Shown here: piece by piece, positions 37,108 through 54,344 of the stretch
How positions within the stretch are numbered: position 1 is the first letter of the stretch
Layout of the letters: each line of letters opens with the position of its first letter
NCBI GenBank assembly: GCA_012729475.1
Contig: JAAYDB010000021.1
Location: 1 to 64,000, forward strand
Direction of reading: 5' to 3'
Length of the DNA: 64,000 bases
Source of the DNA: Bacteroidota bacterium
Lineage (GTDB): Bacteria; Bacteroidota; Bacteroidia; Bacteroidales; VadinHA17
Program-made: the position numbers and the translations under genes
The notes under the pieces: model-generated
What the model was told of the DNA's origin: nothing
The model's input: only the letters and a program-made list of their open reading frames with translations
The model's database searches: none

Positions 37108-39459
37108 ATGGCAGGTATTGAAAAGAAGAAAAAATATCTTATAGGGTTTTGGGCCTTAGTATGTTTGCCTATTCTGGCAGCCATTCTGATTTTCATCTTG
37201 ATATCCAGGGAGAAATTAGGGCCTATGCCCTCTTTTGATGAACTGGAGAATCCGCAGTATTTTCTCGCCGCCGAAGTTTATTCAGAGGATGAAGTGCTTC
37301 TTGGTACAATAAGTATTGAAAACAGGAGCTGGACAGAGTATAATGATTTATCTCCGTATCTTATCAATGCTCTTATCGCAACAGAAGATATAAGGTATTA
37401 CAGACATTCCGGTATCGACATACGCGGGATAGCACGGGCTATTGTCCGGACCATACTGATGGGACAGCGTACAGGCGGCGGAAGTACTATTACACAGCAG
37501 CTTGCCAAACAGCTCTATCCAAGGGATACAGCCAGTGTCTCCCCTTTCGTGAGGACAATGAGACTGGGGATGGCAAAATTCAAGGAATGGCAGACAGCAG
37601 TGAAGCTTGAGAGAAGCTATACCAAGGAAGAGATAATAGCAATGTATCTTAATAAGTACGACTTCAATTATAATGCAATAGGTATTAAATCAGCTTCCCG
37701 TGTTTATTTCAATACCACTCCCGATTCACTTAAGATAGAGGACGCTGCTGTGATGATAGGGATGTTAAAAGCATCCACTCTCTATAATCCCATACGTAAT
37801 CCTGAACGTATGTTAAGCAGAAGGAACATTGTTCTGTCACAGATGGCAAAATATGGTTATCTGCCAAAAGTTGTCGCAGATTCCTTAAAAGCTTTGCCAA
37901 TTGTCACTGATTTTCAGATAGAGGATCACAATACCGGTCTGGCCACTTATCTGAGGGAATACCTCAGGAATATCATGATGAGGCCGGAACCGGATCCCGA
38001 CAGGTATGTAAGGCAATCATCTTATGAAGAAGCCTTGTGGGACTGGGAGAATAACGAACTGTATGGCTGGTGTAAAAAGAATAAAAAACCAGACGGATCG
38101 GATTATGACATCTACCGCGATGGCCTGAAGATTTATACCACTATCAATTCGAAGATGCAACAATATGCAGAAGAGTCTTTAAGAGAACACCTTTCTGAAG
38201 AATTGCAACCTGCATTCTTTGAAAGGGCGAAAAGATTCAGAAACCCTCCTTATTCCAACGATCTGACAAGAAGACAGATAGATGATATATTAATGACTGC
38301 TCTGAGACAGAGCGACAGGTATTACAGCTTAAGAAGAGCAGGAGTAACAGAAGATTCTATTATGAAGGTTTTCAACACAGAATTTAAGATGAAGGTCTTC
38401 AGCTGGGATGGAGAAAAGGATACTGTTATGACTCCGCTTGATTCCATAAGGTATTATAAATATTTCATCAGATCGGGTTTTATGGTAGAAGATCCCACAA
38501 ACGGACATGTAAAAGCTTATGTGGGAGGTCCCGATTTCAGATATTTCAAATACGATGCGGTGACACAGCAGAGGAGGCAGATAGGAAGTACAATAAAGCC
38601 CTTTCTGTATACCATTGCAATGCAGAACGGCTATTCTCCCTGTTATGAAGTGGAAAACATCCCACGGTCATTTTATGATTTTGCCACAGATACTATCTAT
38701 ACTCCCCGTAGTTCGGGTCCCAAAGCCTATCACGGGAAGATGGTTACTCTTAAATGGGGGCTTTCGCAATCAGAAAACTACATCTCCGCCTGGCTCATAC
38801 AACAGTTCAGCCCTGCTACTGTAGCAGATATAATGCATAAGATGGGGATAAGAAGCTTTATTGATCCTGTAAATTCTATCTTTCTTGGTACTTCTGATGT
38901 TAAGCTTGAAGAGATGGTAGGGGCATATTCCACATTTGCCAATAAAGGTATCTACACACGTCCCATGTATGTAACAAGGATAGAGGATAAGAACGGGAAT
39001 GTTCTGGCAAGGTTAATTCCCAGGATTGAAGAAGTATTGACAGAGGAGGCTGCTTACCTTATGGTTAATCTTCTCCAGGGTGTTGTCCAGTCGGGGACAG
39101 CCATAAGGTTGCGGTATGAGCCGTATATGCTTATGAACCAGATAGGAGGTAAGACCGGGACTACCCAGGAACAGTCTGATGGCTGGTTCATGGGTGTTAC
39201 TCCAAAGCTTGTTGGAGGAGTATGGAGTGGCTGGGAGGATCGTGCAATCCATTTTGAAACCATTTCGGAAGGACAGGGAGCAAATATGGCTCTCCCTATT
39301 TTTGGCAAATTCCTTAAAAAAGTATATAATGATCCGGAGCTGGGTATTCTGGAAGCAGAGGAGTTTGAACGCCCTCCGGGTTTTAACCTGGAACTGGATT
39401 GTGAAAAACTCAAGCGGGAAAGTATGCGGCGCACAAATTCCATTAATGAAAGATATTAA
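37108..39459 (+). CDS. Class A penicillin-binding protein (PBP1A-like)
   Basis: Glycosyltransferase ALIATEDIRYYRHSGID and TGGGSTITQQLAKQLY; transpeptidase GSTIKPFLY and GKTGTTQEQSDGWF. Confidence 0.95.
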   Translation: MAGIEKKKKYLIGFWALVCLPILAAILIFILISREKLGPMPSFDELENPQYFLAAEVYSEDEVLLGTISIENRSWTEYNDLSPYLINALIATEDIRYYRHSGIDIRGIARAIVRTILMGQRTGGGSTITQQLAKQLYPRDTASVSPFVRTMRLGMAKFKEWQTAVKLERSYTKEEIIAMYLNKYDFNYNAIGIKSASRVYFNTTPDSLKIEDAAVMIGMLKASTLYNPIRNPERMLSRRNIVLSQMAKYGYLPKVVADSLKALPIVTDFQIEDHNTGLATYLREYLRNIMMRPEPDPDRYVRQSSYEEALWDWENNELYGWCKKNKKPDGSDYDIYRDGLKIYTTINSKMQQYAEESLREHLSEELQPAFFERAKRFRNPPYSNDLTRRQIDDILMTALRQSDRYYSLRRAGVTEDSIMKVFNTEFKMKVFSWDGEKDTVMTPLDSIRYYKYFIRSGFMVEDPTNGHVKAYVGGPDFRYFKYDAVTQQRRQIGSTIKPFLYTIAMQNGYSPCYEVENIPRSFYDFATDTIYTPRSSGPKAYHGKMVTLKWGLSQSENYISAWLIQQFSPATVADIMHKMGIRSFIDPVNSIFLGTSDVKLEEMVGAYSTFANKGIYTRPMYVTRIEDKNGNVLARLIPRIEEVLTEEAAYLMVNLLQGVVQSGTAIRLRYEPYMLMNQIGGKTGTTQEQSDGWFMGVTPKLVGGVWSGWEDRAIHFETISEGQGANMALPIFGKFLKKVYNDPELGILEAEEFERPPGFNLELDCEKLKRESMRRTNSINERY

Positions 39460-39467
39460 CTGGCAGG

Positions 39468-39513
39468 AAGAAAGAAGGTTGAAGAAGTTGAAGAGGTTGA
39501 GGTTGAAGGGTTA
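39468..39513 (+). repeat. GTTGAAGAA-type purine-rich intergenic repeat, copy 1
   Basis: GGTTGAAGAAGTTGAAGAGGTTGAGGTTGAAGGGTT; near-identical inverted copy at 53241-53287. Confidence 0.75.
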
Positions 39514-39605
39514 ATAGAAAAAAAACTGACTTTTGTACAAAGCAGGAAAAAGATATCACTGGTCGTGATTGTCGGGTATTTTTGATTATTAAGGAGTTGA
39601 CAAAA

Positions 39606-40967
39606 TCAGCCAAAGAGAGATCTTACAAGGTTTTCTATCTTTTCAACAGGGCAAATCTCAATATCCAGTCCTTTTACCAATATGTTTTTATGATATTTTG
39701 AAAGATATATTTTCCTGAACCCCATTTTGGAAGCTTCTTTAACTCTCTGTTCTATCCTGGAGACGGGTCGTATCTCTCCTGACAAACCTGTTTCTCCGGC
39801 AAAACAGATATTTTTTGGGATAGGTATGTCGAGGTTGGATGACAGGACAGAACTGACTATTGCCATATCGATTGCAGGATCATTTACTTTCAGACCACCT
39901 GCAATATTCAGAAAGACATCTCTTACAGCCAGTCTGAATCCGGCTCTTTTTTCGAGTACAGCAAGCAGCATATTTAGCCGGCGTATGTCAAATCCTGTTG
40001 TATTACGCTGAGGGGTTCCGTAAACGGCGCTGCTTACCAGTGCCTGTATCTCAATGAGGAAAGGCCTGATACCGTCTATTGTTGCAGCTATTGATATTCC
40101 ACTCAGAGGATCATCATGCTGATTAATGAACAGTTCAGAAGGATTACTTATTTCCTGAAGACCCTTCTCTGTCATTTCAAATATCCCCAGTTCAGAAGTA
40201 GAGCCAAACCTGTTTTTTACAGGTCGCAACAGACGGTATACATAGTTATTGTCTCCTTCAAAATAAAGTACCACATCTACAATATGTTCAAGGATTTTCG
40301 GTCCGGCAAGGGTGCCATCCTTGGTGATGTGTCCGATGAGCAAGACAGGAATACCTGTTGTTTTGGAATATTTCAGCAGTTGGGCCGCACATTCCCTGAC
40401 CTGTGATACAGAGCCTGCAGGGGATTCTAATAGTCCTGTACTCATTGTCTGTATCGAGTCAACAATGATCAGTCCTGGTTTAATATTTTCGGAATGGGTA
40501 AGTATATTTTCGATTTCTGTTTCTCCCAGAATATAGCAGGCATTAGTCGAAACCCTCAGCCTTTGTGCTCTCAGCCTTATCTGTTCACTGCTTTCTTCCC
40601 CTGAGACATATAGGATTTTGACACTCTCCATTGTAAGAGCCAGTTGAAGAGCCAGTGTTGATTTACCTATTCCGGGCTCTCCTCCGAGAAGTATAAGAGA
40701 CCCGCTCACCATGCCTCCTCCGAGTATTCTGTCCAGTTCGGAAGATCCGGTTTTGTATCTGCCCTTTTCGTCTGCCTCTATGTCATTGAGGAGTACAGGA
40801 GATCTTTTTTCTATATTTTTTATCAGTGATCTTTCATGAAGAGGAGAAGGAGTAATAATTTCTTCATGATAAGTGTTCCATTCCTGGCAGACCGGACACC
40901 TGCCGATCCATTTGGGAGACTCTGCTCCGCAATTCTGGCAGACAAATACTGTCTTTACTTTTGGCAT
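39606..40967 (-). CDS. radA: DNA repair protein RadA
   Basis: Zinc motif CQNCGAESPKWIGRCPVCQEWNT; GGEPGIGKST; KNRFGSTSELGIFEM. Confidence 0.97.
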   Translation of the reverse strand: MPKVKTVFVCQNCGAESPKWIGRCPVCQEWNTYHEEIITPSPLHERSLIKNIEKRSPVLLNDIEADEKGRYKTGSSELDRILGGGMVSGSLILLGGEPGIGKSTLALQLALTMESVKILYVSGEESSEQIRLRAQRLRVSTNACYILGETEIENILTHSENIKPGLIIVDSIQTMSTGLLESPAGSVSQVRECAAQLLKYSKTTGIPVLLIGHITKDGTLAGPKILEHIVDVVLYFEGDNNYVYRLLRPVKNRFGSTSELGIFEMTEKGLQEISNPSELFINQHDDPLSGISIAATIDGIRPFLIEIQALVSSAVYGTPQRNTTGFDIRRLNMLLAVLEKRAGFRLAVRDVFLNIAGGLKVNDPAIDMAIVSSVLSSNLDIPIPKNICFAGETGLSGEIRPVSRIEQRVKEASKMGFRKIYLSKYHKNILVKGLDIEICPVEKIENLVRSLFG

Positions 40968-40977
40968 GAGTTTATTT

Positions 40978-42006
40978 TTACCTGGTTTCCAAAGGGTTTT
41001 GTTTCCTGAATAATTTCCTTCCGAAAAGCATATAAAAAGATATTGGACCGAGTATCAGTTCGAATAATATCTGTGATTCATGAGCCAGCAGAGCATATAT
41101 CAGGCCATCTTCCAGAATGACTCCATGGACTACCGCAAGGCCTCTTGAGACAAAATAATGGAAGGCACCAATACCACCCTGGACGGGCACTGACATGGCA
41201 AGACCGCCAATAACAAGAATGAAGAACGAATCTGTAAAGGAAATATCGGAAGTACTTTCCACAGCAAAGAAGACAACCCATGTCATAAGGGCATAATTGA
41301 GCCAGATAAAGACTGTATGAAAAATGAATTCCCATTTATTTTCAAGCCTGGTAATGGTATTCAATCCATTGATAACTCCTTTGATAAGATCAAATATCTT
41401 GGCTATGAACTTGATTTTTTTCAGATTCTTCCGGTATCTGATTAATAATAAGAGAAAAACGATACAGATGAGTGCTGCTATCGCCCAAATAATCCATGTT
41501 GTTCCTAAGTTGGAAAGAATTTTTTCTCTGAAAGGTGTCAGAAAATGTGTTTTCAGGAATTCATTAATAAGTTTTCCGCTTGTAAAGATCAGAATGATCA
41601 GCAGGGCAATAACAGATAAAAGATCTATAGTCCTTTCGATGATCACTGTTCCTATCAGTTGATCGACAGGTAGTTTTTCTTTTTTCCCGAGAGCCATGCA
41701 TCTGGTTATTTCCCCCATACGTGGCAGGGCGAGATTTGCCAGGTATCCCACCATAAGGGCATGAAAAGTATGCCAGAATGAAGTGCGGTATCCCAGAGGC
41801 CGTATCAGCAATTGCCATCGCCGGGCACGGCTGAGATATGCTATCAGACCGAAAAATACAGATAACAACAACCAGTAGTAATCAGCATTTTTCAGCCCTT
41901 CTAAAAGCTTTGAGAAATCAACACTCCGGAAAGCAAGCCAGAGAAGAAGTATCCCGATAGAAAAAAGAATAATAAATTTTAATACACGGATGATCTTTCT
42001 CTTCAA
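40978..42006 (-). CDS. Lysylphosphatidylglycerol synthase TM-region / flippase-like membrane protein
   Basis: LLLWLAFRSVDFSKL...YLSRARRWQLLIRPLG...HALMVGYLANLALPRMGEITRC. Confidence 0.82.
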   Translation of the reverse strand: MKRKIIRVLKFIILFSIGILLLWLAFRSVDFSKLLEGLKNADYYWLLLSVFFGLIAYLSRARRWQLLIRPLGYRTSFWHTFHALMVGYLANLALPRMGEITRCMALGKKEKLPVDQLIGTVIIERTIDLLSVIALLIILIFTSGKLINEFLKTHFLTPFREKILSNLGTTWIIWAIAALICIVFLLLLIRYRKNLKKIKFIAKIFDLIKGVINGLNTITRLENKWEFIFHTVFIWLNYALMTWVVFFAVESTSDISFTDSFFILVIGGLAMSVPVQGGIGAFHYFVSRGLAVVHGVILEDGLIYALLAHESQILFELILGPISFYMLFGRKLFRKQNPLETR

Positions 42007-42007
42007 C

Positions 42008-42358
42008 TCAGATCAGTTTATTGGTTTTTGTATCGGGAAAAATAATGACAGGCTTGTATTTGACAGCCTCATCAGGATCCATCAGGGCATAAGACATTAT
42101 CAGCAGAATGTCGCCAGGCTGAACCAGTCGTGCTGCTGCACCGTTCAGACTTATTTCACCTGATCCTCTCTGTGCTTTAATCACATAAGTCTCAAATCTT
42201 TGTCCGTTATTCAGGTTAAGGACATGAACTTTTTCATTCTCAATAAGCTTTGCAGCGTCGGTCAGCTCTTCGTCTATTGTAATACTGCCAATGTAGTTAA
42301 GGTTTGCACCTGTAACCGTCACCCTGTGAATCTTCGATTTTAAAACCTCTATTAACAT
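42008..42358 (-). CDS. panD: Aspartate 1-decarboxylase
   Basis: [23 protein letters not shown] with Gly-Ser self-cleavage site; adjacent to panC. Confidence 0.96.
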
Positions 42359-42411
42359 TTCTAACGCATATGCTTGTAAATAATGCTACAAAGTTAATTA
42401 TCCTTTTTGAT

Positions 42412-43269
42412 TCATGACAATTCAATTTCAATATTATCAATAAGTCTGATCTTTCCTGCTTTAACAGCAATACATCCGTAATAGCGTCTGTCGTTTCCCA
42501 TTTCATCTTTTCTGTTCACAGGGATGAGTTCAACATCATCCACAATTTCGAAATATTCAATCTCAAAATCCTTATGTTTTTCAATATTATTCCTTACAAA
42601 AATTTTTATATCAGGAATATCTTTCTCTTTCATCATTGATGACACTTTTCTAAGGGTATGGTATATTACCGGAGCCTGATCACGTATTCCGGGTTCAAGC
42701 AACTGGTTTCTGCTGCTCATAGCCAGGCCGTCGGTTTCACGGATAACAGGCTTTGCCGAGATCCTGATATTGAATCCGCATTGTTTTACAAGTGCCTTCA
42801 CTACAGCTACCTGCTGAAAATCTTTTATACCAAAATAGGATATGTCGGGATTAGTTAATTCAAAAAGTCTTGATACAACTTTTGCCACACCATTGAAATG
42901 TCCCGGCCGGTGAAGAGCTTCCATTACCTTGTCGAGATTACCAAAATTGAATATGCGGGTGTCTTTTTCCGGATATATCTCTTTGTCGGAAGGGATGAAT
43001 ACCAAATCATTTCCGCGTAGTACTCCTTGAAGCATTTCAAGGTCTTTTTCAGTATTTCTGGGATAGTTTTTCAGATCTTCTTTATCATTGAATTGTTCAG
43101 GGTTTACATAGATACTTACAATCACGGTTTCACATTCTCTGATAGCACTCAGCACCAGTGATAAGTGCCCCTCATGAAGAGCCCCCATAGTAGGTACCAG
43201 CCCTACAGGAGGAAAAATAACTTTACCGAATTTTCTGCGGAGTTCTTTTACAGTAGTAACAACCTTCAT
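42412..43269 (-). CDS. panC: Pantothenate synthetase
   Basis: VPTMGALHEGHLSLV; FIPSDKEIYPE; YFGIKDFQQVAVV. Confidence 0.96.
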   Translation of the reverse strand: MKVVTTVKELRRKFGKVIFPPVGLVPTMGALHEGHLSLVLSAIRECETVIVSIYVNPEQFNDKEDLKNYPRNTEKDLEMLQGVLRGNDLVFIPSDKEIYPEKDTRIFNFGNLDKVMEALHRPGHFNGVAKVVSRLFELTNPDISYFGIKDFQQVAVVKALVKQCGFNIRISAKPVIRETDGLAMSSRNQLLEPGIRDQAPVIYHTLRKVSSMMKEKDIPDIKIFVRNNIEKHKDFEIEYFEIVDDVELIPVNRKDEMGNDRRYYGCIAVKAGKIRLIDNIEIELS

Positions 43270-43547
43270 TTTTTAAGAAAATTTAACATACAAATTTAAT
43301 AAAATAAGTTGCAGATTGAAGCCCCTGTTGTTTCGCATCCCCATGAGGCTGCCATGCATTGGCCTTATCTGACTTTTACAGCCATTTGCCCTTGTTCAGA
43401 GAAAGACCTCCAGATTGTATATTATCCTGCTTTTATATTCTTTTTCATCCCCGGGAGTATGTTTTCTGTTATTGAGTGTTAGTAAATTATCTCATTTTTT
43501 ATTATTATCTTTGCAGCTTATTAAGAAATGATATTTGAGGCAGATTA

Positions 43548-44354
43548 ATGGAAACCAGGAAGGTGTTATTCATTTCTCAGGAGATCACTCCGTATCTTAC
43601 AGAAACAAGGTTGTCAAAGGTAGGACGTTATCTTCCCCAGGGCATACAGGAAAGGGGCAAGGAGATACGCACATTTATGCCAAGATATGGTTGTATTAAT
43701 GAGCGGAGGAATCAACTGCATGAAGTGATCAGGCTCTCAGGAATGAACCTGATAATTGATGATACGGATCATCCTCTCATCATAAAAGTTGCATCAATAC
43801 AGAGCGCCAGGATGCAGGTTTATTTCATTGATAATGATGATTATTTTCACAGAAAACATATTTTCGCCGATTCAAATGGCCGGGAATTTGAAGATAATGA
43901 TGAGCGTGCTCTCTTCTTTGCCAGGGGGGTAATCGAGACGGTTAAGAAATTGAGGTGGGCTCCTGACATAGTGCATTGTCATGGCTGGATGTCAGCCCTC
44001 GTTCCGGTATATCTTCGGAGTGTATATAGTGATGACCCTCTTTTTCAGAACTATAAAATAATATATTCAATTTATAATAATGACTTTAAAACGCCATTCC
44101 GTTCAACTTTTGCAGACAAATTGCGTTTTGACGGAATAGACGGAGAAAACCTGAAACTCATAAATAATCCTGATTTTATCAATATATCAAAACTGGCCAT
44201 TAAATATTCAGATGGGATAATTATTGGAAGTGAGGATATTAACGAGGATCTGGTGAAGTATGTAAGGACGATTGATAAGCCGGTTCTCCCATATCAGGAT
44301 GAAGAGGTATATATTGATGCCTACAATGAATTTTACGACAATCTTCTGTCATAA
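43548..44354 (+). CDS. Glycogen/starch-synthase-like protein, N-terminal domain only
   Basis: VLFISQEITPYLTETRLSKVGRYLPQGIQERGKEIRTFMPRYG; DIVHCHGWMSALVPVYLR; 268 aa with no C-terminal GT-B domain. Confidence 0.8.
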   Translation: METRKVLFISQEITPYLTETRLSKVGRYLPQGIQERGKEIRTFMPRYGCINERRNQLHEVIRLSGMNLIIDDTDHPLIIKVASIQSARMQVYFIDNDDYFHRKHIFADSNGREFEDNDERALFFARGVIETVKKLRWAPDIVHCHGWMSALVPVYLRSVYSDDPLFQNYKIIYSIYNNDFKTPFRSTFADKLRFDGIDGENLKLINNPDFINISKLAIKYSDGIIIGSEDINEDLVKYVRTIDKPVLPYQDEEVYIDAYNEFYDNLLS

Positions 44355-44418
44355 TTCCATATTATTTAAACAAAATACTTAAATTCGGACCTGATTTACT
44401 AAATCCCCGGATAGATAT

Positions 44419-46254
44419 ATGTGCGGAATAGTTGGTTACATCGGATCCAAACCTGCCCGTGAAATAATCATTAATGGTCTAAAGCGTCTTGAATACCGTG
44501 GTTACGACTCTGCGGGGCTTGCTCTTGTAAATGGAGATGCCAGGATCTTTAAATGCAAAGGCAGGGTAAAAGACCTCGAAGAGATGGTCAGCAAGTCGGA
44601 TTTTAACGGCACCATTGGTATGGGACATACCAGGTGGGCTACTCACGGAGAACCTAATGAGCTGAATGCCCATCCACAGATGTCCTTTAAAGGTAATTTC
44701 ATTGTGGTTCATAATGGGATTATTGAGAACTATGCTCTTTTAAAAAAGCATCTGGAGAGCAGGGGCATTGAGTTCAGCAGCCAGACTGACACTGAAGTGC
44801 TGGCTAATCTCATGGAACATTTATATATCGAAGGCGACCTGACTGCCGAACAGGCTGTCACCCTGGCCCTCAACAGGGTTGAAGGTGCTTACGGTCTGGC
44901 TATTATTTGCACAAAGGAGCCGGATAAGCTCTTTGCCGCCAAAAAAGGCAGTCCATTGGTCATTGGTGTAGGAGAGGGAGAGAATTTCATAGCTTCCGAT
45001 GCCACTCCCATTGTCGAATATACCCAAAGGGTTATCTATCTCAATGATGACGACCTTGCTATAATAAAGAAGGAAGAACTGATGCTTAAAACTATCCGTG
45101 TTGAAAAAATAGAACCGGTAGTGAAAGAGATTGATCTGAAAATAGGAGAGATCGATAAAGAGGGATATCCTCATTTTATGTTGAAGGAGATATTTGAACA
45201 GCCAAGAGCTATTCATGATACTTTCAGAGGAAGAGTTCTTCCCGATCATTCCGGGATAATGCTGGGAGGCCTTCATCAGGTTCTGGAAACAGTATCACAG
45301 GCAGAAAGGATTATTATCATTGCATGCGGCACTTCATGGCATGCCGGACTTATTGGTGAATATTTCTTTGAAGAATATACAAGGATCCCTGTGGAAGTTG
45401 AATATGCATCCGAATTCCGGTACAGGAATCCTATTATAAAGAAAGGCGATATAGTCATTGCCATCAGCCAGAGCGGAGAGACAGCTGATACGCTGGCTGC
45501 TGTCAAACTGGCGCGATCGAAGGGTGCCATGGTGATAGGGATATGCAATGTGGTCGGGAGCAGTATCCCGCGTGAGACTGATGCAGGAGTGTATACCCAT
45601 GCCGGTCCTGAAATAGGGGTAGCTTCAACAAAAGCTTTTACAACACAGGTGACCGTTCTTGCTATGATGGCTTTTGAGATAGGCAATATAAAAGGAGTCA
45701 TTTCAGCACAACGATACAAGGAACTGATAACCGAACTGGTTGCCATACCGCGTAAGATTGAAAAAGCGCTTGAAGCCAATGAGCAGGCTGCTGAATTAGC
45801 CGGAAATTTTGAGAAAGTACATAATGCCCTGTATCTTGGCAGGGGTTACCTTTTCCCTGTCGCTCTGGAAGGTGCTCTGAAGCTTAAAGAGATTTCTTAT
45901 ATACATGCAGAAGGTTATCCTGCTGCAGAAATGAAACATGGGCCTATTGCCCTTATCGACGAAAATATGCCGGTCATAATTATCGCTACCAAAGATGATA
46001 CTTATGAAAAGATAATAAATAATATACAGGAGATAAAAGCCAGAAAAGGTAAGGTTTATGCCATCGTTACAGAGGGAGATGAGATAATAAAGAAGATGGC
46101 TGATTATGTGCTTGAGGTACCTGAAACACTCACAGCCTTCTCATGTCTTCTGGCTGTCATTCCGCTTCAACTTCTCTCATATCATATTGCTGTACTGAGA
46201 GGATGTGATGTTGACCAACCAAGAAACCTCGCGAAATCGGTTACTGTAGAATAA
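44419..46254 (+). CDS. glmS: Glutamine-fructose-6-phosphate aminotransferase (isomerizing)
   Basis: MCGIVGYIG N-terminus; two SIS domains; QPRNLAKSVTVE C-terminus. Confidence 0.98.
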   Translation: MCGIVGYIGSKPAREIIINGLKRLEYRGYDSAGLALVNGDARIFKCKGRVKDLEEMVSKSDFNGTIGMGHTRWATHGEPNELNAHPQMSFKGNFIVVHNGIIENYALLKKHLESRGIEFSSQTDTEVLANLMEHLYIEGDLTAEQAVTLALNRVEGAYGLAIICTKEPDKLFAAKKGSPLVIGVGEGENFIASDATPIVEYTQRVIYLNDDDLAIIKKEELMLKTIRVEKIEPVVKEIDLKIGEIDKEGYPHFMLKEIFEQPRAIHDTFRGRVLPDHSGIMLGGLHQVLETVSQAERIIIIACGTSWHAGLIGEYFFEEYTRIPVEVEYASEFRYRNPIIKKGDIVIAISQSGETADTLAAVKLARSKGAMVIGICNVVGSSIPRETDAGVYTHAGPEIGVASTKAFTTQVTVLAMMAFEIGNIKGVISAQRYKELITELVAIPRKIEKALEANEQAAELAGNFEKVHNALYLGRGYLFPVALEGALKLKEISYIHAEGYPAAEMKHGPIALIDENMPVIIIATKDDTYEKIINNIQEIKARKGKVYAIVTEGDEIIKKMADYVLEVPETLTAFSCLLAVIPLQLLSYHIAVLRGCDVDQPRNLAKSVTVE

Positions 46255-46273
46255 CCCTAAAATACAAACCCTT

Positions 46274-48271
46274 ATGAACAAGGCCTCCAATTATCATTCA
46301 CTTTTTGATTCGGAGATAGCTATTCTGCAACAAAATGCCTGCCGATGTGACGACTGGAACAGGATAAAAGCTTCAGCAGAATTTGATCCCGCCAGATGTG
46401 TCGGTGTAGTTTTTTCCGGAGATGTTACTCTTGGTGATTTAAGCGGATCATACACTGACAAAACAGGTGTGACTGTCAAATGCGGGATCTCAAATGCGCA
46501 TATTCACAACTGTACCATTGGATCCAATGTGTTGATAGTAAATGTAGGGGATTACATTGCAAATTACGACATCGAAGACAATGTAGTAATAAAAAACTGC
46601 GGTAAAATATATACCGAAGGAACATCATCCTTTGGCAATGGTACTGAAGTTGCTGTATTGAATGAAACAGGAGGCCGGGCTGTTAAGATATGGGATAAGC
46701 TGTCAGCTCACGAGGCTTATATCATTGCACTCTACAGACACCGGGAAAAGGCTGTCAGGAACATTGAAAACATGATCATGGAATATGCCGTTTCTGTTAG
46801 TTCTGACCGCGGTATTATCCGACATGACAGCACAGTTCTTAATTGTCGTGATATACGGAATGTGAGAATCGGTCCCTACAGTTTTCTGGAAGGGGCTATG
46901 AGACTGAATGAAGGATCTGTTAACAGCTGTAAGGAAGATCCGGTGTTCATAGGTCCCGGAGTTATCATGGATCATTTTATATTATGTTCAGGATCGGAAG
47001 TAACAGAATCAACTCTTATTGATAAATGTTTCATTGGTCAGGGTTGTATGCTGGGGAAGCACTATTCTGCCGAGAACTCTCTCTTCTTTGCCAATTGTGC
47101 AGGGTTTCACGGAGAAGCCTGTTCAATATTTGCCGGCCCTTATACTGTTACCCATCATAAGTCCACTCTCCTTATAGCCGGTATTTTTTCCTTTATGAAT
47201 GCAGGCAGTGGCTCTAACCAGAGTAATCATATGTACAAACTGGGTCCTATTCACCAGGGTATTATGGAGAGAGGATCAAAAACCACAAGCGATTCATACT
47301 TGTTATGGCCTGCCCGTATAGGTCCTTTTACCCTTGTTATGGGCAGACATTATAAGAATATTGATACTTCATCACTTCCTTTCTCATATCTTATAGAAAG
47401 TAATGATGAAAGTATTATTGTACCGGCAATAAACCTGAGAAGTGTCGGAACAATAAGGGATGCACAAAAATGGCCCAAACGTGACAGAAGAAAAGATACG
47501 GACAAGATAGACCAGGTTAATTTTAACCTCCTGAGTCCTTACACTATACGTAAAATGTTTGAGGGAAGGGATCTTTTAAGCAGGATCAGATCTGTCACAG
47601 GGCCTGTTTCAGCATCCTATGCCTACAACAACATGCTTATCAAAGGTCCTTCTCTTGAAAAAGGAATTCAGTTATATCAGATAGGAATAAATAAGTTTCT
47701 AGGTAACTCAATGATCAAACGGCTTGAGAACACGCGGTTCAGAACGGATGAAGATCTGCGGAAGAAGCTGACACCGGATAAATCCCCGGGCAATGGTGAA
47801 TGGGTTGATCTGGCAGGTCTTATTGCGCCTCAGAAAGTTATTGACAGTCTCCTCGAGGATATAGAATCAGGTAAATTATCTTCTCTTGAAAAAATTGAGA
47901 ATGCCTTCCGCACAATACACAATTCATATTACAACTGGGAATGGACATGGGCATGTGAAAGGATTGAACAGGAAGCCGGTAAGCCGGTTAGTCAGTTTAC
48001 CCGTGATGATGTACTTGACATGGTTGAGAAATGGAAGAAAAGTGTCATAGATCTTGATAAAATGCTTTATGAAGATGCCCGGAAAGAGTTCAACCTGTCG
48101 TCAAGAACAGGCTTTGGCATAGACGGGGGAGAAGATGTAAAGAAAAAAGATTTTGAACAGGTACGCGGAGAGTTCGAGTCAAACAGTGTTGTCTCTGCCA
48201 TACAGGACCATATTAAAAAGAAAACAATTCTTGGCGATGAACTGATTGAAAGAATAAATGAGATAAAGTGA
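46274..48271 (+). CDS. DUF4954-like protein with hexapeptide/beta-helix character
   Basis: Repeated short beta-helix-type motifs; 19 bp downstream of glmS. Confidence 0.65.
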   Translation: MNKASNYHSLFDSEIAILQQNACRCDDWNRIKASAEFDPARCVGVVFSGDVTLGDLSGSYTDKTGVTVKCGISNAHIHNCTIGSNVLIVNVGDYIANYDIEDNVVIKNCGKIYTEGTSSFGNGTEVAVLNETGGRAVKIWDKLSAHEAYIIALYRHREKAVRNIENMIMEYAVSVSSDRGIIRHDSTVLNCRDIRNVRIGPYSFLEGAMRLNEGSVNSCKEDPVFIGPGVIMDHFILCSGSEVTESTLIDKCFIGQGCMLGKHYSAENSLFFANCAGFHGEACSIFAGPYTVTHHKSTLLIAGIFSFMNAGSGSNQSNHMYKLGPIHQGIMERGSKTTSDSYLLWPARIGPFTLVMGRHYKNIDTSSLPFSYLIESNDESIIVPAINLRSVGTIRDAQKWPKRDRRKDTDKIDQVNFNLLSPYTIRKMFEGRDLLSRIRSVTGPVSASYAYNNMLIKGPSLEKGIQLYQIGINKFLGNSMIKRLENTRFRTDEDLRKKLTPDKSPGNGEWVDLAGLIAPQKVIDSLLEDIESGKLSSLEKIENAFRTIHNSYYNWEWTWACERIEQEAGKPVSQFTRDDVLDMVEKWKKSVIDLDKMLYEDARKEFNLSSRTGFGIDGGEDVKKKDFEQVRGEFESNSVVSAIQDHIKKKTILGDELIERINEIK

Positions 48272-48279
48272 CGGCTTAC

Positions 48280-49341
48280 TTATCTCCCGGAGTACATCAG
48301 CTCATAGTATTTTTCATAATCACCTGAAATAACATTTTCCATCCATCCGGTGTTGTTCAGGTACCATTCGACAGTTTTTTCAAGACCAGCTTCAAAATCG
48401 GGCAAAGGTGACCATCCCGTTTCTCTGCAGAGTTTAGTACTGTCAATAGCATATCTGAGGTCGTGACCCGGACGATCCTTCACAAAGGTTATCAGTTTTT
48501 CTGAAGTGCCCTCAGACCTGACCAGCTTTCTGTCCATTATTCTGCACAACATCCTGATAAGATCAATATTCTTCCATTCATTATTACCACCGATATTGTA
48601 TGTTTCTCCGGCTTTTCCTTTATGAAAAAGGATATCAATTGCTGCCGAATGATCTTCAACATACAACCAGTCACGTATGTTTTCTCCCTTCCCGTACACA
48701 GGAACGGGTTTGTTGTTTTTGATGTTGTTAATAGCCAGGGGGATCAGTTTCTCGGGAAACTGGTTTGGTCCATAGTTATTGGAACAGTTACTGATCAGTG
48801 CAGGCAAGCCGTAGGTATGAAAGTATGCTCTTACCATGTGGTCGGAACTGGCTTTGGATGCTGAATATGGACTCCTGGGATCGTACCCTGTCTCTTCAGT
48901 AAATTTTCCTTCCTTACCAAGTGTCCCGTAAACTTCATCAGTGGAAATATGATAAAATATCTTATTGTCGAAATTGTTCTTCCAGCAATTCAATGCTGCA
49001 TTAAGAAGATTTACAGTGCCTACTATATTGGTTATAACAAATTCATCCGGACTGGTTATTGATCTGTCTACATGAGATTCAGCTGCCAGATGTATTACAC
49101 CGTGAAAAGAGTATTTCCGGAACAATGCTGTAACACTGTTCTTATCGGCAATGTCAATCTTTTCAAAAATATAATTGTCTTTTTTCTCAATATCAGTAAG
49201 GTTTTCCAGATTACCGGCATAGGTCAGTTTGTCTGCGTTGACAATAAGGTATGAGGGATATTTGTTTACAAAGCGTCGTACGACGTGAGAGCCTATGAAA
49301 CCGGCTCCACCTGTGATGAGAACAGATCTTGTTGTTTCCAT
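48280..49341 (-). CDS. rfbB: dTDP-glucose 4,6-dehydratase
   Basis: ITGGAGFIGSHVVRRFVNKYP; HLAAESHVDRSI; YSASKASSDHMVRAYFHTYG. Confidence 0.92.
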   Translation of the reverse strand: METTRSVLITGGAGFIGSHVVRRFVNKYPSYLIVNADKLTYAGNLENLTDIEKKDNYIFEKIDIADKNSVTALFRKYSFHGVIHLAAESHVDRSITSPDEFVITNIVGTVNLLNAALNCWKNNFDNKIFYHISTDEVYGTLGKEGKFTEETGYDPRSPYSASKASSDHMVRAYFHTYGLPALISNCSNNYGPNQFPEKLIPLAINNIKNNKPVPVYGKGENIRDWLYVEDHSAAIDILFHKGKAGETYNIGGNNEWKNIDLIRMLCRIMDRKLVRSEGTSEKLITFVKDRPGHDLRYAIDSTKLCRETGWSPLPDFEAGLEKTVEWYLNNTGWMENVISGDYEKYYELMYSGR

Positions 49342-49369
49342 ATGTTAAAAATAATTTAGTGCCAACAGA

Positions 49370-50401
49370 TTAGTCTGTTTTTGTTCTGATATTTATTTCC
49401 CATTTCCAGGCGCTTCTCATGGCTTCGTCAAGGCTACTCACTGTTTTCCACCCCAGCTCCTGGTTAGCAAGGGAGGGATCGGCCCATATTTTTTCTATAT
49501 CACCTGGGCGCCGGCCGGCAATTTTATAATTCAGTTTTTTCCCGGATATTCTTTCAAAGGATTCTATTGCTTCAAGCACGGATGTTCCGTTACCAGTACC
49601 GAGATTGAATATTTCATAATTTGTTTTGTTTTTTCCTGAAGCCAGTCTGTTCACTGCCTCCACATGGGCTTTGGCGAGATCCACAACATGTAGATAGTCT
49701 CTAATACACGAGCCATCAGGGGTATTATAATCATTCCCATATACGAGCAGGGTTTCTCTCAGTCCGATAGCCGTCTGGGTGATAAAAGGCACCAGATTTT
49801 CCGGCACTCCCCGCGGCAGTTCGCCGATTCGTGATGAAGGATGAGCTCCGATAGGATTGAAATATCTGAGTGATACAGCCTTTAGCCTGTTATTGGCGGT
49901 TACAGTATCACGTATTATCTCTTCTCCGATCTGCTTTGTATTTCCATAGGGAGATAAGGCCGGCTGTACGGGTGTTTCTTCAGTAACAGGCAGTATGCCT
50001 GGCTGGCCATAAACGGTACAGGAGGAAGAAAAGACCAGAGATGGAATATTGTGGACGGTCATTGCTTCCAGAAGATTCATAAGAGAAAGCAGATTGTTAC
50101 GGTAATACTTAAGGGGTTTACTGACAGATTCGCTTACGGCTTTAAATGCTGCGAAATGCACTATAGCCTCAATATCACTGTTTTTCCTGAGAAAACTCTC
50201 CAGTCTTTCCGCATCACAGAGATCGAATACTTCAAGTATCGGGGTTATTCCCGTTATCTCGCCGATCCTGTCGGCAATGGAGGCTTCAGAGTTGGAAAGG
50301 TTATCTATAAGGATAACCTCATAACCTGCCGAGATAAGTTCAACAGCAGTGTGCGATCCTATATAGCCTGTTCCGCCGGTCACAATTACTTTCTTCTTCA
50401 T
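49370..50401 (-). CDS. galE: UDP-glucose 4-epimerase
   Basis: VTGGTGYIGSHTAVELISAGYEVILIDNLSNS; SSSCTVYG; NPIGAHPSSRIGE. Confidence 0.94.
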   Translation of the reverse strand: MKKKVIVTGGTGYIGSHTAVELISAGYEVILIDNLSNSEASIADRIGEITGITPILEVFDLCDAERLESFLRKNSDIEAIVHFAAFKAVSESVSKPLKYYRNNLLSLMNLLEAMTVHNIPSLVFSSSCTVYGQPGILPVTEETPVQPALSPYGNTKQIGEEIIRDTVTANNRLKAVSLRYFNPIGAHPSSRIGELPRGVPENLVPFITQTAIGLRETLLVYGNDYNTPDGSCIRDYLHVVDLAKAHVEAVNRLASGKNKTNYEIFNLGTGNGTSVLEAIESFERISGKKLNYKIAGRRPGDIEKIWADPSLANQELGWKTVSSLDEAMRSAWKWEINIRTKTD

Positions 50402-50448
50402 TAATTCAGTTATTATAATTAATAACAGTAACGATCTGAAAAAACAAA

Positions 50449-51402
50449 TTAAAGTGTTTTGAGAACAGGATGATAATTACCCTGTAATCCTATGGGCACA
50501 GCATTTCTGATAGTATAGGCAGTCACCACTGATTGCCTGGCATCATCCAGTCCGAAACCTCTGCCTTCAATAATTTCATTGTAGGTTGACGTATGGAGTT
50601 CGGTAAAACCATCGCTGAATTCAAGCTCTTCTCCTTCTATAGTGATGGAACGGAACGTCCTTTGTCCTTTTTCCCTGCATTCTGCCGGGAGATCATTAGA
50701 GTTAAGGCTGAGGAACCATCTCACCCGTGCATTTTTCAGTTCCAGATAACCACCTGCTCTGGTAGGTTCAGAGATGTTTACCACATTGTTTTTTACCTCT
50801 CCGAAGATCCATCCCAACATATCGAAGAAATGGATTCCTATGTTCGTGGCAATACCTCCTGATTTCTGTATATCGCCCTTCCAGGATATATAATACCAGT
50901 TTCCCCGGCTTGTAATGTAAGTCAGATCAACATCATAGACTTTATCTCTTGGTCCGTTAAGAATTTTCTCCCTTAGTTCCATTATCTTAGGATGCAGACG
51001 TAGCTGCAGCACAGTGTATATTTTGCGTCCGGTCTCTTTCTCAATCTCCTGAAGAGCATCGATATTCCATGGATTAAGCACAATAGGTTTTTCACATATG
51101 GCATCGGCCTGATGTCTCAGAGCAAACCGTATATGAGAGTCGTGCAGGTAATTCGGTGAACATATACTTACATAATCTATCTTGGTGCCTGTTCTTTTAA
51201 GTTTATCAAAATGTCTGTCGAAGCGCTCAAACTCAACAAAAAAATCGCTTTTCGGGAAGAAGCTGTCAAGAAGACCAACACTGTCAAATTTATCAAGACT
51301 AGCCAGCAGGTTGCTGCCAGTATCTTTTATTGCTTTCAGATGGCGGACGGCAATATAACCTGCAACACCTATGAGCCCGAAATTCTTTTGTTCACTATCC
51401 AT
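50449..51402 (-). CDS. wbpB: WbpB/WlbA-type UDP-GlcNAcA 3-dehydrogenase (Gfo/Idh/MocA family)
   Basis: KNFGLIGVAGYIAVRHLKAIKDTG; DYVSICSPNYLHDSHIRFALRHQADAICEKPIVLNPWNIDAL. Confidence 0.88.
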   Translation of the reverse strand: MDSEQKNFGLIGVAGYIAVRHLKAIKDTGSNLLASLDKFDSVGLLDSFFPKSDFFVEFERFDRHFDKLKRTGTKIDYVSICSPNYLHDSHIRFALRHQADAICEKPIVLNPWNIDALQEIEKETGRKIYTVLQLRLHPKIMELREKILNGPRDKVYDVDLTYITSRGNWYYISWKGDIQKSGGIATNIGIHFFDMLGWIFGEVKNNVVNISEPTRAGGYLELKNARVRWFLSLNSNDLPAECREKGQRTFRSITIEGEELEFSDGFTELHTSTYNEIIEGRGFGLDDARQSVVTAYTIRNAVPIGLQGNYHPVLKTL

Positions 51403-51415
51403 AATAATTTATATT

Positions 51416-52003
51416 TTATTCGTTTTTTGAAATATTTGTCACGGTTCCGTTTTCCAGTTTGTAGGTGTCTCCTCCTTCAGGACAGACGGCCAGACCCTTT
51501 TCATCAAAAAGCAGCCTGTGTCCGTATTTGCTCATCCATCCTGTCTGCCGGGCAGGATTACCCACTACCAGAGCATAGGGCTTAACATCTTTTGTGACAA
51601 CAGCACCTGCACCTATGAAAGCATAATGGCCGATGACAATACCACATATTATTGTGGCATTTGCCCCGATAGAAGCCCCTTTTTCCACAATAGTGGTTAC
51701 ATAACTGTCTTTCCTCACAACGGCACTCCTGGGATTGATGATATTAGTGAAGACCATCGAAGGACCAAGGAATACGTCATCATGGCACAAAACTCCGGTA
51801 TAGACAGAGACATTGTTCTGAACCTTAACATTATTTCCCAGTATTACACCGGGAGATACAACAACATTTTGTCCTATATTGCAGTTTTCTCCTATCTCCG
51901 ATCCTGTCATGATATGGCTGAAATGCCATATCTTTGTCCCTTTGCCAATGCTACAACCTTCGTCGACAACAGAAGTTTCATGTGCAAAATATTCATTATC
52001 CAT
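51416..52003 (-). CDS. wbpD: WbpD/WlbB-type N-acetyltransferase (hexapeptide fold)
   Basis: [58 protein letters not shown]. Confidence 0.87.
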
Positions 52004-52015
52004 AATTGCTATTTT

Positions 52016-53140
52016 TTAGAAGAAATCAAGTACAGTTGAAGTTATATATTCCAGTTGTTCCTTTTCAATATCCGGGTGCATGGGTAATGATAATACCTCT
52101 TTACAAAGATCGCTTGTTACAGGAAAATCATTTTCACTGTAGCCCAGAAATCTGTATGCCTGCTGCATATGCAGAGGCCCCGGGTAATATATCATTGATG
52201 GTATCTTAGCCTGTTCAAGGTGTTTTTTTAGTTCATCCCTTTTTCCATTACCCACTTTTATTGTGTATTGATGGAAGATATGGGCAGAGAATGCTGATCT
52301 GGCAGGGATACTTATGTAAGGACATCCTGTAAAGGCACTGTCATAAAAATCAGCGGCAGCTCTTCTGGCTGAATTGAACCGGTCGAGATATTTTAGTTTA
52401 ACGTTGAGGATAGCTGCCTGAAGGGTGTCAAGGCGGGAATTGATACCGATATCATTATAGTGATATTTCTCTTTCATCCCGTGATTAGCTATGCTTCTCA
52501 TCTTCTGTGCCAAGGTATCATCGTTGGTGAAAAGGGCTCCTCCGTCGCCGTAGCATCCCAGGTTTTTCGAAGGGAAAAAGGAAGTAGCTCCGATTGTGCC
52601 AATTGTGCCGGCTCTTTTTTTTGAGCCGTCGGAGAAAAAATATTCTGCTCCGGTGGCCTGAGCAACATCCTCAATGACATGAAGTCCATATTCTTTTGCA
52701 ATCTCCATGATGGCTTCCATATCTGCACACTGCCCAAAGAGATGTACAGGTACTATGGCTTTTGTCTTTTCAGTTATTGCTTTTCTTATAGCAGCCGGAG
52801 TTATATTGAAAGTAGCAGGATCAGGATCAGTAAGGACTGGTTTAAGACCCATAAGAGCTACTACTTCTACTGTGGCGATGAAAGTAAAGTTGGTAGTTAT
52901 TACTTCATCACCGGGCTGCAGCCCCAGTGCCATCATAGCTATCTGAAGGGCATCAGTGCCGTTGCCACAGGATATTACATTTTTTACATTCAGGTATTTA
53001 CGAAGAGCCTCTTCAAAAACTCTGACTTCCGGACCTTTAATAAAAGCTGTGGAAGAAATGACTGCCCCGACAGCTTCATCAATTTCAGAGCCTAGTTTTT
53101 CATACTGAGCTCTTAGGTCAACCATCTGTATTTCTCTCAT
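52016..53140 (-). CDS. wbpE: WbpE/WlbC-type PLP-dependent aminotransferase (DegT family)
   Basis: MVDLRAQYEKLGSEIDEAV; SCGNGTDALQIAMMALGLQPGDEVITTNFTFIATVE; FFPSKNLGCYGDGGA. Start moved from 53170 to the internal Met at 53140. Confidence 0.87.
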   Translation of the reverse strand: MREIQMVDLRAQYEKLGSEIDEAVGAVISSTAFIKGPEVRVFEEALRKYLNVKNVISCGNGTDALQIAMMALGLQPGDEVITTNFTFIATVEVVALMGLKPVLTDPDPATFNITPAAIRKAITEKTKAIVPVHLFGQCADMEAIMEIAKEYGLHVIEDVAQATGAEYFFSDGSKKRAGTIGTIGATSFFPSKNLGCYGDGGALFTNDDTLAQKMRSIANHGMKEKYHYNDIGINSRLDTLQAAILNVKLKYLDRFNSARRAAADFYDSAFTGCPYISIPARSAFSAHIFHQYTIKVGNGKRDELKKHLEQAKIPSMIYYPGPLHMQQAYRFLGYSENDFPVTSDLCKEVLSLPMHPDIEKEQLEYITSTVLDFF

Positions 53141-53240
53141 GCTGGTAAAAATAAAATACGAAGATATCATATTATGCAGAAAGAAAGAAGTAAGTTTTGA
53201 CCAACAATCCTACTGTTTACAGCAATAAAGATAATTACTG

Positions 53241-53287
53241 AACCCTTCAACCTCTCAACTTCTTCAACTTCTTCAACCCTCTTTTTT
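53241..53287 (-). repeat. GTTGAAGAA-type intergenic repeat, copy 2 (inverted relative to copy 1)
   Basis: Minus strand GGGTTGAAGAAGTTGAAGAAGTTGAGAGGTTGAAGGGTT. Confidence 0.75.
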
Positions 53288-53320
53288 GTTCAAGGAACAC
53301 ACAAAATAATCCTGATTTAG

Positions 53321-53352
53321 TTTACAGACACATATAATTTTTCTTAATTTTG
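53321..53352 (+). promoter_or_regulatory. Bacteroidetes-type promoter: TTTA, 20 nt spacer, TAATTTTG
   Basis: TTTA at 53321-53324 and TAATTTTG at 53345-53352, 20 bp before the next ATG. Confidence 0.55.
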
Positions 53353-53372
53353 CACACAGAGGTTAATTTCCG

Positions 53373-54344
53373 ATGGATATTATTGCTTTCATAAGAGATT
53401 TGTTATACAGCCATGACTGCGTCATTGTGCCTGGGTTTGGTGGTTTTATCGGCAATTATACCCCGGCACAGATTGACAAGACTACTTCTACTTTTTCTCC
53501 TCCGGTCAAACAGATATCATTTAACCGTAATCTTAATCATAACGACGGACTTCTTGTGGGCAGGATATCCGGGATTTCGGGAATTAGTTACCAGGATGCC
53601 CGTAATATTGTTGATGAATTCACTCTTTCTCTGAAAAAAAGGCTGGAGAAAGGAGAAAAGATTCAGTTTGAGGGGATTGGCAGTTTCATAAATAATCAGG
53701 AAGGCAGTATACAGTTTGAGCCGGACCGGAATGTTAATTACCATCTGGATTCTTACGGACTGGAACCATTTCAGTATCCTCCTCTCGAAGAATATGATGT
53801 AAGGAAAAGGGTAATTATGCATACAGGGAATACCCTGTCACGCAGACCTGCCAGCGCAAGGGTTCTGTGGAGGGCCGCTGTTATTGTACCCTTAGTGGTA
53901 GCAGCTGTGGCAATATCCCTGAAAACAGATATATTTAAAACCAGACTGGAGAAATCTGCCCTTAACCCTCTGTCTGCCGGTACAACAGAATACAGAGAGA
54001 GTATTTCAGAAAACAGTGATAAAGAATCTTCAGCAGTTACGGCAGATGTTGTTGATGATACCATAAAACCTGTGTTATCGTTTTCATCCTCTGATGATTT
54101 ACAGGTAGCTGTATCAGCAGAAATGACTGATTACTATCTTATTACCGGAAGTTTTCAGTTTAAGGAAAATGCTGATCAACAGGCGGATATCCTGATCAGT
54201 GAAGGTTATATTCCGGAAATTATTCCGGCTCCTAATGGTTTTTTCAGAGTCAGTGCTGCAAGATGTAATGATCTTAATGCAGCAGTGAGCATGAAAGAAT
54301 CACTATCAAAAAAATACCCGGGAACCTGGGTAAAGAAAATCTAG
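53373..54344 (+). CDS. HU-like (CCDC81-type) N-terminal domain + TM + C-terminal SPOR-domain protein
   Basis: DLLYSHDCVIVPGFGGFIGNY...FNRNLNHNDGLLV; TM WRAAVIVPLVVAAVAISL; C-terminal YYLITGSFQFKENADQQADILISEGYIPEIIPAPNGFFRVSAARC. Confidence 0.82.
   Translation: MDIIAFIRDLLYSHDCVIVPGFGGFIGNYTPAQIDKTTSTFSPPVKQISFNRNLNHNDGLLVGRISGISGISYQDARNIVDEFTLSLKKRLEKGEKIQFEGIGSFINNQEGSIQFEPDRNVNYHLDSYGLEPFQYPPLEEYDVRKRVIMHTGNTLSRRPASARVLWRAAVIVPLVVAAVAISLKTDIFKTRLEKSALNPLSAGTTEYRESISENSDKESSAVTADVVDDTIKPVLSFSSSDDLQVAVSAEMTDYYLITGSFQFKENADQQADILISEGYIPEIIPAPNGFFRVSAARCNDLNAAVSMKESLSKKYPGTWVKKI

Follow-up and report, generated by a model that had tools for sequence, protein, structure and literature searches.

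Why should the same short purine-rich block occur, in opposite orientations, in two gaps between unrelated genes of one bacterium? The question arises from a window of 64,000 nucleotides (the whole stretch of DNA analyzed here) from the 2.97-Mb, 187-contig draft genome of an uncultured Bacteroidales bacterium. A first-pass annotation had described a block downstream of a penicillin-binding protein (PBP) gene together with a near-identical inverted block 13.8 kb away, distinguished by a 2-nt indel and one substitution, and had read the pair as a dispersed element. The second block is present exactly as described, at 53241-53278 on the reverse strand. The first is equally real, but its start had been placed at 39468, thereby including nine purine-rich upstream bases; the array proper begins at 39477, 18 nt downstream of the end of the PBP stop codon (39459). 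The two copies, each delimited by direct reading and an exact core match, occur in the following setting.

37108-39459, forward strand: bifunctional penicillin-binding protein (transglycosylase and transpeptidase; Pfam PF00912, PF00905), upstream of copy 1
39460-39605, no strand assigned: convergent PBP-radA gap, host of copy 1; in congeners often the site of other tandem words or hairpins
39477-39512, forward strand: copy 1, stand-alone GTTGAAGAA array of 36 nt
39606-40967, reverse strand: RadA-type ATPase (Pfam AAA_25, zinc ribbon, ChlI), convergent neighbor of copy 1
52016-53170, reverse strand: DegT/DnrJ/EryC1 aminotransferase (Pfam PF01041), left of copy 2
53171-53372, no strand assigned: divergent DegT-HU/SPOR gap, host of copy 2
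53241-53278, reverse strand: copy 2, stand-alone GTTGAAGAA array of 38 nt
53373-54344, forward strand: HU-CCDC81 and SPOR protein (Pfam PF18174, PF18175, PF05036), right of copy 2

Copy 1 (in full, GGTTGAAGAAGTTGAAGAGGTTGAGGTTGAAGGGTT) is composed of the units GTTGAAGAA, GTTGAAGAG, GTTGAG, and GTTGAAGGG, in that order, and copy 2 (GGTTGAAGAAGTTGAAGAAGTTGAGAGGTTGAAGGGTT) of GTTGAAGAA, GTTGAAGAA, GTTGAGAG, and GTTGAAGGG. The former lies between convergent genes (PBP forward, radA reverse) and the latter between divergent genes (DegT reverse, HU-CCDC81 forward), which argues against a single role at the level of the transcript. An 18-mer core shared by both, GGTTGAAGAAGTTGAAGA, occurs exactly twice in the window; in dinucleotide-shuffled versions of the window searched at up to 3 mismatches, the mean was only 0.05 matches, and no shuffle reached 3. 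The window copies are neither a product of chance nor generic coding low complexity.

Genome-wide, the core has 40 matches with at most 1 mismatch, and their mixed orientation (19 versus 21) rules out a marker of the replication strand. Clustering of GTTGA[AG] units delineated at least 35 arrays of at least three units, with a unit consensus of GTTGAAGAR and a period of 9. The commonest unit, GTTGAAGAA, accounts for 49 of 134 units and is followed by its one-base variants; exactly four units are present in 16 of the 35 arrays. Variation around GTTGAAGAA takes the form of single bases and small indels, as expected of slippage. Arrays of GTTGAAGAR were also the strongest of those not made of A+T only in the 464 kb sampled, and the core has 100 matches in IMG/VR. 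By simple ORF calls, 32 of the 35 arrays fall outside predicted ORFs, compared to ~9% intergenic DNA in the genome, which was read by sampled regions; a generic coding Val-Glu-Glu repeat is thereby ruled out for the source genome. A control in which the unit was read backwards is itself enriched, since a unit so rich in purines reads much alike in either direction, and was excluded as a null. The counts and the non-coding bias, both observed directly, uphold the earlier claim of a dispersed sequence. The outcomes that the first-pass annotation had named as speaking against that claim, namely two copies only without relatives, or equal frequency inside genes, were not found in full.

We consider it probable that the window copies belong, as stand-alone arrays, to a dispersed and imperfect minisatellite of 9 nt, which has expanded in this lineage by slippage and occasional copying and is tolerated between genes without a detectable job. 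Arrays would lengthen and shorten via replication slippage, and from time to time a short array would be copied to another intergenic gap in which selection tolerates it. The order of units provides a limited view of such copying. Both window copies contain several units in matching order, one of them a short unit of the GTTGAG or GTTGAGAG type that is rare overall (4 of 134), which hints at direct copying over separate birth. The irregular shared order had been taken to favor an element over independent slippage, an argument that proves weak; two random four-unit arrays drawn from the genome's own unit pool are as alike as the window copies ~10% of the time (p ~0.10), and the shared order is thus not decisive as proof of one transposed ancestor. 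This modest p value accords with the alternative that each site's array was born independently by slippage from purine-rich DNA of the gap, without any exchange of copies among sites, as does the occupation of the same gap by different words in different species (see below). We nevertheless regard independent birth as exceedingly improbable, because a single word dominates the arrays of the source genome and separate births should have yielded many.

In the same genome, the array also occurs inside an element of ~430 bp. Its ends, TCCTGTTTTGTGCG and CGCACAAAACAGGA, are inverted, its GTAG-tagged arms carry CCAGTAGCCCGGG...CCCGGG palindromes, and the array sits in the middle; the element thus combines terminal inverted repeats, a non-coding body, an internal tandem repeat, and many intergenic copies. 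A search with the element returned 51 matches across the genome, some whole and some partial, with many of them cut by contig ends, and diverged versions with 70-80% identity are present on contigs C80, C18, C12, and C179. Recognizable arms surround ~20 arrays; the remaining arrays, both window copies included, are armless. On contig C103 (L317, 14-752), arms at positions 14-94 and 655-752 surround the ORF of a Y1/IS200-type transposase (Y1_Tnp, PF01797; 47 bits compared to a cut-off of 23). The right arm on this contig carries no array, and related arms in the congeners G033, G068, and G080 are likewise free of it. Judged from sequence, the C103 arms and transposase are likely to represent the autonomous parent of the array-carrying element. 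Insofar as array-bearing arms occur alongside the same arms, array-free, around the transposase gene, it appears that the minisatellite was captured by a RAYT-type miniature element, which disseminated it in the source genome. In the simplest reading, a derivative would have lost its transposase, trapped the minisatellite, and then multiplied; mobilization by the transposase would make this a non-autonomous RAYT/IS200-type miniature element that multiplied the word further.

Two other features of these loci were recorded. Several ~430-bp copies (L293; L299/L319; L297/L315; L301/L303; L310/L311) have imperfect direct repeats of 25-70 nt in both flanks, unusual for a transposon, and no short exact duplication; most copies are broken by contig ends. 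Contig C18 (L057) carries a second, different Y1/IS200-type transposase gene at 2470-2769 on the reverse strand (PF01797, 59 bits), with CCCCGGGC...GCCCGGGG palindromes of its own on either side.

Could the window copies derive from the ~430-bp element, or from an earlier form of it, through decay and loss of both arms, such that all arrays go back to transposition? Many arrays in the genome do lie within the element or its diverged relatives, the 70-80% identity versions provide candidates for older forms, and 3 of the 19 BrickBuilt copies of Porphyromonas gingivalis are also without leader and tail (PMC4596501). At the window copies themselves, however, a search for element arms (a leader or tail match) revealed no trace at either, and neither inverted ends nor a convincing target duplication was found. 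The GTAG palindrome GTAGCCCGGG is no more frequent in the window than expected by chance, and the window copies show no REP. Furthermore, the congeners G025, G034, and G009 are rich in stand-alone arrays of the word, and their element matches, among those listed, are to the array itself. Descent of the window copies from the element is therefore unlikely. The mobile remnant suggested earlier retains its basis elsewhere in the genome, where a mobile-type element carries the array, but not at the two copies for which it was proposed.

The suggestion of a structural role is not supported. Both window copies fold less well than shuffled sequence, with z = +1.2 for the gap of copy 1 and z = +1.8 and +0.9 for the arrays with short flanks of copies 1 and 2, respectively. 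An intrinsic terminator hairpin with a T-run was sought at both copies, and no fold was better than shuffled for either. An Rfam covariance search of 39000-53600 revealed no family at gathering score at these copies or elsewhere in the region, where two matches remained below threshold. The lack of a fold and the opposite gene contexts rule out a terminator, hairpin, or 3′-UTR element for the window copies. The more general proposal, that the arrays are functional 3′-end or RNA elements, either terminators or binding sites acting within the transcript, draws on the convergent gaps of congeners, which often hold long hairpins, some of them formed from inverted word arrays. Copy 1 has no inverted partner, however, and copy 2, placed between divergent genes, marks no 3′ end; together with the positive z values and the Rfam result, this makes an RNA-level function very unlikely.

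The word is sparsely distributed among relatives. With loose settings, at least one match was obtained from 27 of the 62 congeneric genomes searched, and clear multi-copy expansion was seen in only 4 of the 62 (the source genome, G009, G025, and G034); variants of the word, GTTGAAGGG and GTTGAAGAG among them, are also present in the expanded genomes. In an order-wide sample, 4 of 295 genomes gave a match, and a search of ~85,000 species genomes for exact matches to a 24-mer yielded no more than 21 stretches. Among these, several from Chitinophagaceae and Saprospiraceae are arrays located between genes, and several others encode Val-Glu-Glu repeats, although further ORF calls in such distant genomes may be spurious. 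The recurrence of the word in intergenic DNA of the two distant families could indicate that the sequence itself matters. Presence in several Bacteroidota, together with the dispersal, non-coding location, and strong purine/pyrimidine asymmetry of the arrays, is also what might be expected of DNA sites for a protein of chromosome organization, segregation, or recombination, spaced around the chromosome. The small number of expansions in the genus and of matches in the order argues against a core chromosome function, which would be conserved. Moreover, the window copies are oppositely oriented without a clear GC-skew switch in the 13.8 kb between them, and orientation is mixed throughout the genome. 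We thus consider a role as protein-binding sites highly improbable.

The gaps orthologous to those of the window provide a further opportunity to evaluate conservation. After the PBP stop codon, the PBP-radA gap of congeners contains tandem arrays of other words: GGTGTAACG-type words in G077, CACGACT in G029, AGAGGCTAT in G070, GAATGACAATC in G004, and AAGGCAC in G071. Approximately 11 of 24 such gaps carry a tandem signal at p ≤ 0.025 when compared with shuffled sequence; at other loci, the same test gave p < 0.02 in 4 of 16 gaps between convergent genes, in 5 of 36 between divergent genes, and in 9 of 91 between genes in tandem, all small numbers. Strong folding (z < –3) characterizes 12 of the 24 PBP-radA gaps in congeners, compared to 40% of other convergent, 7% of tandem, and 8% of divergent gaps. 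The occupation of the gap by different words rules out a conserved site at this position.

Some of these congener arrays can be located individually. PBP-radA gaps with differing short tandem words lie at L269 8822-9005, L341 4482-4709, L336 11990-12108, and L338 10852-10967, and several of the words in this gap are inverted pairs that fold as long hairpins between the convergent genes. Further intergenic tandem words, ACCCACTC, GCAAGACCT, GGGAGAGC, and GGGTTTCGC, form a lineage-specific vocabulary in congeners (L333 9276-9482; L262 2126-2464; L264 11655-11835; L324 2187-2589).

At the DegT-HU gap, the blocks beside both start codons are conserved in congeners and resemble promoters, and the array occupies the unconserved middle; alignment with the closest relative, G025, holds to GAAC and diverges beyond. 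Placed outside conserved promoter-like and coding blocks, the window copies appear to do no job, as far as the lack of pattern in the sequence suggests. The arrays look like lineage-specific filler born in, or arriving at, tolerant gaps rather than occupants of a conserved site. A different account of the same turnover would be a sequence-independent process that seeds gaps across the genus with short tandem arrays (units of 7-11 nt). Words would differ from lineage to lineage, and an orthologous gap would be refilled differently from species to species, often with inverted pairs between convergent genes, through a kind of templated copying open to any short word and not classical transposition of a single element. 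Such a process is conceivable, if improbable. The turnover of words within a single orthologous gap is the most interesting feature left by the analysis, and it makes the birth of such repeats testable. In practical terms, our preferred reading of a dispersed minisatellite allows the window copies to be annotated as such, and not as a regulatory element.

Comparable repeats help to place both forms of the array. Cyanobacterial STRRs are dispersed short-unit repeats comparable to the GGGNATC repeats. A literature search identified BrickBuilt, GGGNATC repeats, and GTAG REPs, and retrieved no description of the GTTGAAGAR word. BrickBuilt consists of a minisatellite with 23-nt units enclosed by a Porphyromonas gingivalis MITE, with both flanks in 11 of its 19 copies, one flank in 5, and neither in 3 (PMC4596501). 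It shares with the ~430-bp element the Bacteroidales host, the minisatellite within a miniature element bounded by leader and tail, the many intergenic copies, and the occurrence of copies with both, one, or no flank. The likeness is one of anatomy; the unit measures 23 nt in BrickBuilt as against 9 nt in the present array, the ~430-bp element has arms with GTAG palindromes that are also found around a Y1 transposase, and the window copies are armless. GTAG-tagged REPs and REPINs go together with RAYT transposases (PMC3733652, PMC3116915), and the arms of the ~430-bp element are correspondingly GTAG-tagged palindromes that flank a Y1_Tnp gene on C103, although the array itself is non-palindromic and without a GTAG tag. 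The element is therefore BrickBuilt-like in its working and REP-like in its arms. It constitutes a second Bacteroidales minisatellite trapped in a miniature element, after BrickBuilt, here with the arms also found around a transposase gene of the same genome.

For the window copies, the closer comparison is with the dispersed 7-nt GGGNATC repeats found in Xanthomonas and Nostoc. These favor arrays of four units and positions close to stop codons, and no role is known for them (PMC4692102). Common to these repeats, the STRRs, and the present arrays are a unit of 6-9 nt, genome-wide dispersal, a strong non-coding bias, a predominance of four units, variation between related species, and no known function. 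Three differences stand out: (i) the present array is not of the quadruplex type and does not belong to that subtype, its units in the window copies having, by inspection, GG or GGG at irregular places and no four regular G-tracts; (ii) some copies here ride in a mobile-type element; and (iii) the divergent gene setting of copy 2 is under-represented in the genomes with GGGNATC repeats or STRRs. By anatomy, the window copies group with the GGGNATC/STRR kind, without its quadruplex feature. With them, the few dispersed intergenic repeats of 6-9 nt described to date gain an example from Bacteroidales.
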